64,000 nucleotides of DNA, taken from Cercospora beticola (Eukaryota; Ascomycota; Dothideomycetes; Mycosphaerellales; Mycosphaerellaceae). Position 1 is the stretch's first letter. The number at the start of each line of letters is the position of its first letter. The translations under genes were made by a program, and so were the position numbers. The notes beneath the pieces are model-generated. The model worked only from the letters and a program-made list of their open reading frames with translations, searched no databases and was not told where the DNA came from. The stretch is taken from NCBI RefSeq assembly GCF_033473495.1, contig NC_088938.1:3100001-3164000 (forward strand). The letters run 5' to 3'. Of this stretch, positions 58,749 to 62,844 are shown in pieces.

Positions 58749-58753
58749 AAAAA
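58749..58753 (-). terminator. RNA polymerase III terminator
   Basis: A run of five T on the minus strand, six bases past the tRNA discriminator base. This is the usual Pol III stop and supports Pol III transcription of the whole interrupted gene. Confidence 0.7.
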
Positions 58754-58758
58754 GTGTA

Positions 58759-58908
58759 GGGTCTGTCCCGGGATTGAACCGGGGACCTCCCGCAACTTGG
58801 ATGCATTGCTGCTCCCTAAGCGGAAATCTGCGTTGTGTGTTAGAACGATGTTCAGGTGTCTGAGGAGCTGCTGGAGCTTTACTCACCATACCACTAGACC
58901 AACAGACC
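58759..58908 (-). tRNA. tRNA-Pro (AGG) with a canonical intron and an extra spliceosomal-looking intron
   Basis: Read on the minus strand, the ends GGTCTGT and ACAGACC pair over seven bases, with C as discriminator. The A box TGGTCTAGTGG (58901-58891) and B box GGTTCAATCC (58780-58771) are intact, and the T-arm pairs CCCGG with CCGGG. The anticodon loop is TTAGGG-T with anticodon AGG at 58817-58815, and the anticodon stem TCCGC pairs with GCGGG. A 19-nt intron (58813-58795) follows position 37, the normal tRNA intron site. A second insertion of 59 nt (58886-58828) splits the 3' strand of the D-stem: GTGAGT donor, TTCTAACAC branch site, AACGCAG acceptor. Removing both leaves a canonical tRNA-Pro body (GTGGTATG joined to ATTTCCGCTTAGGG). 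Confidence 0.85.
58828..58886 (-). other. Spliceosomal-type intron inside the tRNA-Pro gene
   Basis: 59 nt, starting GTGAGT and ending CGCAG, with CTAAC whose branch A lies about 14 nt before the 3' end. Length, donor, branch and acceptor match introns of protein genes in this same window. It sits between positions 23 and 24 of the tRNA. A tRNA endonuclease would not be expected to cut here, since that enzyme measures to the anticodon loop. Confidence 0.7.
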
Positions 58909-61524: not shown

Positions 61525-62844
61525 ATGTCCGCTCCATCGATCCTTATAATCGGCGCTGGCATTGCCGGTCCTCCGTTGGCATCTTTCCTCCTTCTTTCTC
61601 CTCTCCCAGCATCGCAGCTTCCATCCATAACAATTGTGGAACGACGTGCAGAAGATGATCAATCTAAGGGCCAAAACATCGACATCCGCGGGACAGGAAT
61701 GCAAATTATCCGAAACCTAGGCTTAGAAGCTGCGATCCGAAATGCTACGACTGGCGAAGAAGGTTGTCAATTCGTCGATGACAAGGGTCGCGTATGGGCA
61801 AGCTTTGCGGCGGACAAGACTGGCCAGATTCAGACCGGCACGAGCGATATCGAGATTCTGAGGGGAAGACTAGCGGCGATTTTGTTGGGGAGATTGAAGA
61901 GTTTAAGTGATGATGTGAAAGGGAAAGGGGGCAAGGGAGTGGAATTCCTGTTCGGGGACTATGTGGAAGAATTTACCGATGTTGGAGAGAAGGGGGCGGA
62001 GGTGAAATTTGCGAATTCTGGGGAGAGACGGCAATTCGACGTTGTAATCGCTGCCGATGGATTGCAGAGTCGGACGAGGAGGATGGTGTGGGGTGAGAGT
62101 GGAGAAGAAGACAGGCTCAAGAGGTTGGGCATGTATGGCGGTTTCTTCAGTATGCCGAGCGCGAAGACGGACAGCGAGTGGCGAAGATGGTTCCATACCT
62201 CGGGAAGGAGAGGCATCATGGTGAGGCCTAGCGACGACCCGAAGATCACAACGGTGTTTGCGTATGTGATCAACGAGAACGATCGCAGGCTTGAAGACGC
62301 CGCTCGAGATGGACGGAAAGGCAGCGCCACCCAACGAGCTTTGTTGAAAGAGTACTATCAGGATGCCGGGTGGGAGTGTGAGAGAATCAATAGGGAGATG
62401 GAGATAGCCGACGACTTCTACTTCGATATGGTAGCTCAGGTGAAGATGCCAAAGTGGAGCAAAGGCCGAGTGGTGCTACTCGGTGATGCTGGATATTGTG
62501 CATCGCCAATAAGCGGAATGGGAACGACCTTGGCACTCAACGGAGCGTACAGCCTCGCTGGAGCCCTGACTCGTAATCCGCACGATCACGCTGCGGCATT
62601 CGAAGAGTACGAGAACAGCATGCGGCCTCTCGTGGACCGCGCTCAAGCATTACCACTCGGTGGCAGAGTGCACTATCTCATCAACCCGGAGTCAGTCTGG
62701 GGTGTATGGGTTCTGCATTTGCTGTGCTGGTTCTTCTGCCAGTCTGGCATCGCAATGCTGCTCGCGCGGTTCCAAGGTCCTCCAGCAAATGCCGTGCCTA
62801 TCAAAGAGCACGGCTTCACGCAGGCAGCTGAATGGCGAGAGTAA
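61525..62844 (+). CDS. FAD-dependent monooxygenase (UbiH / TetX-like aromatic hydroxylase)
   Basis: Single exon, 439 residues. The three motifs of class A flavoprotein hydroxylases are present: GxGxxG in ILIIGAGIAGPPLA (residues 6-19), the DG motif in FDVVIAADGLQSRTR (about 175), and the GD motif in VVLLGDAGYCASPISGMGTT (about 315). QNIDIRGTGMQIIRNLGLE after the first motif matches TetX-like and salicylate-hydroxylase-like fungal enzymes. They use FAD, NAD(P)H and O2 to hydroxylate aromatic or polyketide substrates. A C-terminal hydrophobic stretch (VWVLHLLCWFFCQSGIAMLL) may touch a membrane. No other secondary-metabolism genes flank it closely, so its substrate is open. Confidence 0.85.
   Translation: MSAPSILIIGAGIAGPPLASFLLLSPLPASQLPSITIVERRAEDDQSKGQNIDIRGTGMQIIRNLGLEAAIRNATTGEEGCQFVDDKGRVWASFAADKTGQIQTGTSDIEILRGRLAAILLGRLKSLSDDVKGKGGKGVEFLFGDYVEEFTDVGEKGAEVKFANSGERRQFDVVIAADGLQSRTRRMVWGESGEEDRLKRLGMYGGFFSMPSAKTDSEWRRWFHTSGRRGIMVRPSDDPKITTVFAYVINENDRRLEDAARDGRKGSATQRALLKEYYQDAGWECERINREMEIADDFYFDMVAQVKMPKWSKGRVVLLGDAGYCASPISGMGTTLALNGAYSLAGALTRNPHDHAAAFEEYENSMRPLVDRAQALPLGGRVHYLINPESVWGVWVLHLLCWFFCQSGIAMLLARFQGPPANAVPIKEHGFTQAAEWRE

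Follow-up and report, generated by a model that had tools for sequence, protein, structure and literature searches.

Our analysis indicates that the 59-nt insert in the D arm of a tRNA-Pro(AGG) gene of Cercospora beticola is in all likelihood a genuine U2-type spliceosomal intron in a working nuclear tRNA gene, and that this gene is one of a large set whose transcripts would be processed by the spliceosome and then by TSEN. The intron signals, the restored tRNA structure together with its paralogue sequence, and the finding of no uninterrupted copy for several isoacceptors were all computed here. Making the tRNAs of this plant-associated fungus very probably needs the mRNA-splicing machine in addition to the usual tRNA one. 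Read from the genome, cytosolic translation is very likely to be obligately spliceosome-dependent for its tRNAs: every gene found for Phe, Cys, Trp, Ile(AAT) and Pro(AGG) is affected, the gene for a tRNA of about 72 nt can be split by as many as three spliceosomal introns and a TSEN intron as well, leaving internal exons that may be as small as 14 nt, and a genome-wide class of genes would depend on two unrelated splicing machines.

The tRNA-Pro(AGG) gene of the window

The window, i.e., the whole stretch of 64,000 nucleotides that was analysed, covers positions 3100001-3164000 of contig 4 in a genome of 36.07 Mb and 10 contigs. Its minus strand, on which all features given below lie, carries at 58759..58908 a tRNA-Pro(AGG) gene that contains one intron of each of two types; the gene was recognized by sequence reading, by our cloverleaf scorer and by ARAGORN. 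Exon 1 (58887..58908) contains the 5′ strand of the acceptor stem, the A box and the D arm up to position 23. The 59-nt spliceosomal-type (GT-AG) intron follows at tRNA position 23/24 (58828..58886), with the 5′ splice site GTGAGT at 58881..58886, the branch site CTAAC at 58839..58843, inside TTCTAACAC, and the 3′ splice site CGCAG at 58828..58832. Exon 2 (58814..58827) completes the D arm and runs to position 37, including the anticodon AGG. Next comes a 19-nt canonical 37/38 (TSEN-type) intron (58795..58813), placed by the established tRNA intron position, and exon 3 (58759..58794) extends from position 38 to the discriminator, including the T arm. Both the A box TGGTCTAGTGG (58891..58901) and the B box GGTTCAATCCC (58770..58780) are intact, and a T5 run resembling a Pol III terminator starts 6 nt past the gene end (58749..58753). 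The original prediction had described a complete tRNA-Pro(AGG) with A and B boxes, stems and a T-run, and sequence reading, scorer and ARAGORN bear this out; the coordinates and motifs of the 59-nt insert, and a second intron of 19 nt after position 37 (58813-58795), were likewise confirmed. Elsewhere in the window, positions 61525-62844 encode a protein with 93% identity to a Cercospora kikuchii protein.

Removal of the insert had been claimed to restore tRNA-Pro. With both inserts taken out, the claim holds: the product is 72 nt long, has 7, 3, 5 and 5 pairs in its acceptor, D, anticodon and T stems, respectively, and is called Pro(agg) by ARAGORN with a score of 120.5. The unspliced gene is miscalled as Leu(tag) by the same program, and an Rfam search of the window gave no match reaching the gathering score. 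In a deletion test blind to splice motifs, the best 59-nt deletion for this gene is another than the GT..AG one, which scores one point lower (26 vs 27). The GT..AG placement is preferred because of the splice motifs and because of a pair of Asp genes, one with a GT..AG intron at 23/24 (L088) and its paralogue without (L051). Apart from Asp, the same site is also occupied in a gene for Ala-TGC (L066).

Interrupted tRNA genes across the genome

When the genome was searched with the Rfam tRNA model, 62 of 905 candidates were scored and 42 matches were listed, several of them overlong. These and the B-box matches revealed GT-AG inserts in many tRNA genes. Since the B-box pattern has 190 matches in the genome vs 201 for the reversed pattern, which is the chance level, these matches were used as starting points only. 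Our own scorer sought cloverleafs after removing up to two, and later three, inserts that start with GTNNG, end with HAG and contain a YTNAY branch. In 270,003 bases (the fetched DNA plus the window), it found 25 insert-free tRNAs, 14 with a single insert and 7 with two. When the scan was repeated on 270 kb of reversed DNA and on eight block-shuffled copies totalling 2.16 Mb, it gave zero tRNAs of any kind. Chance is thus excluded for the window gene, as the intron-removing scan is empty in reversed and block-shuffled DNA.

With four added loci and up to three inserts allowed, the catalogue holds 50 genes: 25 plain, and 16, 6 and 3 with one, two and three inserts, respectively. Ten loci were omitted as duplicates or overlaps (L001, L033, L034, L049, L050, L036, L040, L061, L022 and L025). 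The 25 interrupted genes contain a total of 37 GT-AG introns and are spread over seven contigs. Selection of the loci relied on Rfam score, on the B box or on isoacceptor patterns, so the share of 25 in 50 should not be taken as representative of the genome; the fetched DNA covers 77 of the 190 B-box matches. An anticodon-loop insert is also present in 24 of the 25 interrupted genes, the exception being L023. The original prediction for the window, that a single nuclear tRNA gene contains introns of two types, is therefore supported, and the combination recurs in nearly all the genes of this set.

ARAGORN, when every insert including the 37/38 one was removed, called all 25 interrupted and all 25 plain genes with the anticodon assigned by the scorer. 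When the GT-AG introns were taken out but the 37/38 insert was kept, all 25 interrupted genes were still called as tRNAs, 15 of them with the same anticodon (20 of 25 for plain genes). From the unspliced DNA, the program returned the scorer's anticodon for 2 interrupted genes and for 20 plain ones, out of 25 each. Besides, 8 of the 25 interrupted genes were among the matches listed in the Rfam genome search, in which 62 of the 905 candidates were scored. In other words, tRNA finders miss or mislabel such genes. Two assignments are less certain: L029, for the boundary of its variable arm and a motif-blind optimum of another length, and L031, whose isotype CAT is doubtful. In L053, the intron picked automatically was 45 nt long and had the donor GTCTGC; it was manually exchanged for GTGAAT..AATAG, a 54-nt intron lying one nucleotide off the site in the other Ile genes. 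The corrected form was used for intron lengths and signals, pair comparisons and blastn, and the uncorrected one in the catalogue and in the motif-blind, ARAGORN, site and BHB tests.

The 37 introns are 50 to 59 nt long (median 53). Their commonest donors are GTAAGT (11), GTAAGC (5) and GTGAGT (5), their acceptors are CAG in 26, TAG in 8 and AAG in 3, and CTAAC occurs in 22 of them, with the branch about 10 nt upstream of the acceptor. In 50 mRNA-like introns, predicted from open frames of this DNA, the donors, CAG/TAG ends and branch spacing are the same and the lengths more spread; GTGAGT, the donor of the window gene, is the commonest donor among them. Because GT, AG and a loose branch had been search criteria, placement was redone without regard to motifs. 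The annotated GT..AG deletion was among the best-scoring set in 12 of the 16 one-insert genes, where about 0.3 would be expected by chance (71 best deletions over 16 genes, 1/256 each). The optimum was not GT..AG in the other four, namely L029, L082, L088 and the window gene.

These introns occupy 18 sites in the acceptor, D, variable and T arms. Those on the acceptor 5′ strand lie at 4/5 and 5/6, followed by 9/10 and 11/12; those of the D arm lie at 23/24, 24/25 and 25/26; beyond the variable arm, the T-arm sites range from 50/51 to 61/62, with further sites at 65/66 and, on the acceptor 3′ strand, at 68/69 and 70/71. None of the 37 falls in the anticodon arm, the seat of the TSEN intron. The shortest internal exon measures 14 nt (L079). 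The A-box span (positions 8-19) is split by an intron in two genes (L079 and L083), and the B-box span (52-62) in seven (L037, L095, L099, L052, Ala-CGC L066, Trp L012 and L101). In the Phe gene L095, whose internal B box is thus split, a B-box-like GGTTCGAGTC lies beyond the terminator, at locus positions 231-240.

Could these inserts be errors of the assembly or derived from cDNA? A single assembly was examined, and yet such an artefact is extremely unlikely: the 37 introns differ from one another, are spread over 18 sites and seven contigs and have orderly splice signals, and introns sharing a site have diverged. We also consider it highly unlikely that the tRNA splicing endonuclease removes the inserts at non-canonical positions, as it does in archaea, Cyanidioschyzon and nucleomorphs. 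Non-canonical tRNA introns of this kind are known, as the sections of PMC4090602 used here describe. However, our own simple test, which looked at the junctions for a BHB-like central helix of four pairs, detected it in 3 of 37 introns vs 5.1 (sd 1.9) on shuffling, and what the inserts carry instead is GT, a CTAAC-like branch and AG at mRNA-like spacing. With no BHB excess, BHB/TSEN removal of the GT-AG inserts was rejected, and they are not taken as non-canonical introns of the TSEN type.

The original prediction had further named introner-like elements as a possible source of the insert, and this origin found no support. Mutual blastn among the 37 introns gave no match beyond one of 13 nt, and nothing past three short matches of 19-24 nt appeared when they were compared with 301 kb of fetched DNA. 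As no intron sequence is shared within these 301 kb, there is no sign of introners there. A DNA search of the whole genome returned only the locus itself, in a search insensitive enough that a similar one missed the related Pro(AGG) gene L032.

Several other tRNA-like loci came to light. L028 (three copies), L096 and L097 form a family whose members start with GGGGYTGTGGTC; their anticodon-loop inserts are long, scored at 28 nt in L028 and at 94 nt in L097, and their anticodons are odd or unclear. L019 and L070 are tRNA-like, with a D arm TAGTGTAGTGGTCAACAC and about 70 nt or more of extra sequence in the anticodon region. L005 (G000:C7:2750480-2750551) is called tRNA-Ile(GAT), which is unusual in a eukaryotic nucleus, and resembles the elongator-type Met of L006; it lies about 560 nt from an initiator-like Met gene bearing a 24-nt insert. 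Inside contig 2, an AT-rich, mitochondrial-looking tRNA cluster (G000:C2:3502591-3503121; L014, L022 and L025) may be an insertion of mitochondrial DNA or an assembly join.

Probable function, transcription and splicing of the interrupted genes

The predicted products of splicing match intact paralogues in three cases. Spliced Asp L088 equals intact L051 (72/72), spliced Ser(AGA) L023 equals intact L008 (81/81) and spliced Ala(AGC) L052 equals intact L021 (72/72), so that in each pair the uninterrupted paralogue provides an empty site marking the intron ends. In other pairs, the mature parts are conserved to different degrees. The two Phe genes are identical in their mature parts (73/73), and their introns at the same site agree in 35 of 56 positions (0.63), at the background level for intron pairs (random average 0.59, 95% point 0.67). 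The Ile genes L042 and L102 are also identical when mature (74/74), with introns at 0.69-0.70, above the 95% point, and the Cys pair agrees in 67/72 mature positions and at 0.75 in same-site introns, again above that point. The mature parts match imperfectly for Trp (69/72), Ala(TGC) (70/72) and Pro(AGG) (61/72) as well.

Exact-match surveys with D-arm plus anticodon patterns located 2 Phe, 2 Cys, 3 Ile(AAT) and 2 Trp genes, with zero matches for the reversed pattern, and all nine were interrupted on inspection of their sequences; being exact-match, such surveys could let divergent intact copies escape. Two of the Ile(AAT) genes share an identical coordinate on two contigs (G000:C1:1793721 and G000:C4:1793721), and they are separate loci because their introns differ. 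The Pro survey gave 71 matches vs 78 for the reversed pattern, and since this control is as high as the count, tRNAs were chosen from it by eye; three Pro(TGG) genes and one Pro(CGG) gene were located in this way as well. Besides the window gene, a single other Pro(AGG) gene was found, L032 (G000:C2:250205-253231); it is interrupted too, and no intact copy was found. A DNA similarity search for an intact Pro copy was uninformative, as it missed L032 despite long shared exact stretches. In L032 (locus 1581-1652), GTAAGT..GAACTAACA..TTTCCAG follows position 72 and precedes the first T5 run, which is possibly a further intron in the 3′ trailer, uncounted among the 37.

The window gene had originally been read either as a Pol III transcript handled by the spliceosome or as a recently disabled tRNA. 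The latter idea, extended to the whole set, would have the interrupted genes be dead or decaying copies hit by insertions, with functional intact copies elsewhere. Uninterrupted paralogues of Asp, Ser(AGA) and Ala(AGC) do exist, and more than half of the genomic B-box matches (all but 77 of 190) lie beyond the fetched DNA. Nevertheless, every copy found for Phe, Cys, Trp, Ile(AAT) and Pro(AGG) is interrupted, L032 included, the Phe pair and two Ile genes have kept identical mature parts while their introns diverged, the insert ends are splice signals and some predicted products match paralogues. The disabled-tRNA reading is thus contradicted for the window gene, and death of the copies in general is very improbable. 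With all the copies found for these five isoacceptors interrupted, the cell must remove the introns, and reading of the Phe, Cys and Trp codons depends on this removal, unless divergent intact copies were missed. The spliceosome part of the other reading is supported, and synthesis by Pol III is likely.

As to the polymerase, A and B boxes, downstream T-runs and the absence of TTTT from the 37 introns favour Pol III as the likely maker of the transcripts. On shuffling, 5.6 of these introns would be expected to contain TTTT (P(0) = 0.001). The comparison with mRNA-like introns (0/37 vs 5/50, p = 0.07) is a weak contrast and TTTT occurs within the exons of three interrupted genes, so we regard its depletion as a suggestive sign of Pol III. 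Counts of TTTTT are uninformative, at 0/37 tRNA introns vs 1/50 mRNA-like introns. All 25 plain genes are followed by a run of T4 or longer within 120 nt, and so are 23 of the 25 interrupted genes; for the remaining two, the stretch of sequence stops too soon. Among other Pol III genes checked, no intron was seen in full-length U6 and 5S matches, and thus not every Pol III gene is affected. On contig 7, a half match to U6 snRNA (G000:C7:2731470-2731523) spans model positions 1-54 at E 0.005, short of the family cut-off, and may represent either a fragment or an intron-split copy.

Introns inside the A- or B-box spans should hamper TFIIIC, and the split boxes point either to assistance by upstream elements or to Pol II. 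Synthesis of the interrupted genes by Pol II, alone or within longer RNAs, with co-transcriptional splicing and release of the tRNA by RNase P and tRNase Z, would account for the nine genes in which a split box is tolerated and for working mRNA-type splicing, and TATA-like elements stand upstream of some genes, intron-bearing and plain. It is nevertheless improbable, given the T4 or longer runs behind the interrupted genes (at 73-85 nt in three of them), the introns devoid of TTTT, and the A and B boxes that are intact in the window gene.

We infer Pol III as the maker, the spliceosome as the remover and the order of the steps as follows. The gene would be transcribed, most likely by Pol III, up to the T-run, giving a precursor with two introns. 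The spliceosome would take out the GT-AG intron, thereby restoring the D arm. This step probably precedes or accompanies folding and end trimming, since the introns of other genes split the acceptor and T stems. TSEN and tRNA ligase would then excise the 37/38 intron from the folded tRNA, as established tRNA processing suggests.

Such a pathway would tie mRNA splicing directly to tRNA supply. It raises the question of how U1 and U2 could recognize a short, highly structured transcript, and of how TFIIIC could tolerate split promoters. Furthermore, it offers a system for studying intron gain in RNA genes, with introns delimited at single-base resolution.

Relation to known introns

The nuclear tRNA introns of eukaryotes known from textbooks are removed by TSEN and lie at 37/38. 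The anticodon-loop insert shared by the window gene and 24 of the 25 interrupted genes is of this canonical kind, whereas the GT-AG introns differ from it in position, signals and machinery alike. An mRNA-type intron occurs in the U6 snRNA of S. pombe and other fungi. This is a spliceosomal intron in a Pol III transcript, as proposed here, with U6 rather than a tRNA as the host RNA; unlike in S. pombe, the full-length U6 and 5S matches in the present genome are uninterrupted.

Introns of the BHB type, as described in the sections of PMC4090602 used here, resemble ours in lying in the D, T and other arms with several per gene (archaea, Cyanidioschyzon and nucleomorphs). In contrast, the nucleomorph tRNA inserts of Guillardia measure 3-24 nt in that account, and the present introns are 50-59 nt long, with spliceosomal signals and no BHB excess. 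The introner-like elements of Dothideomycetes (PMC4457414, in the portions used) share with ours the fungal class and the spliceosomal nature; however, introners are multiplied copies of each other, and the tRNA introns have no such kinship in the fetched DNA. The word tRNA is absent from the main text of PMC4457414 and from PMC4979122. No report of spliceosomal introns in nuclear tRNA genes was seen in open-access PMC, judged by title and start of abstract among the matches listed. The original statement that no nuclear precedent is established is consistent with this search.

The closest precedent found is that of the fungal U3 snoRNA genes, which contain spliceosomal introns according to the passages of PMC5832005 used here. 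As in the present set, the host is a small, structured non-coding RNA, the introns are GT-AG with a branch of RCTRAC type, and there are paralogues that have the intron and others that lack it; a few species have two introns per gene. U3 is one snoRNA gene family, whereas here a set of tRNA genes is concerned, internal exons can be as small as 14 nt, every arm but that of the anticodon harbours introns, and the precursor is expected to be processed by a second machinery as well. The introns are of a known kind, and the host gene is of a new kind.
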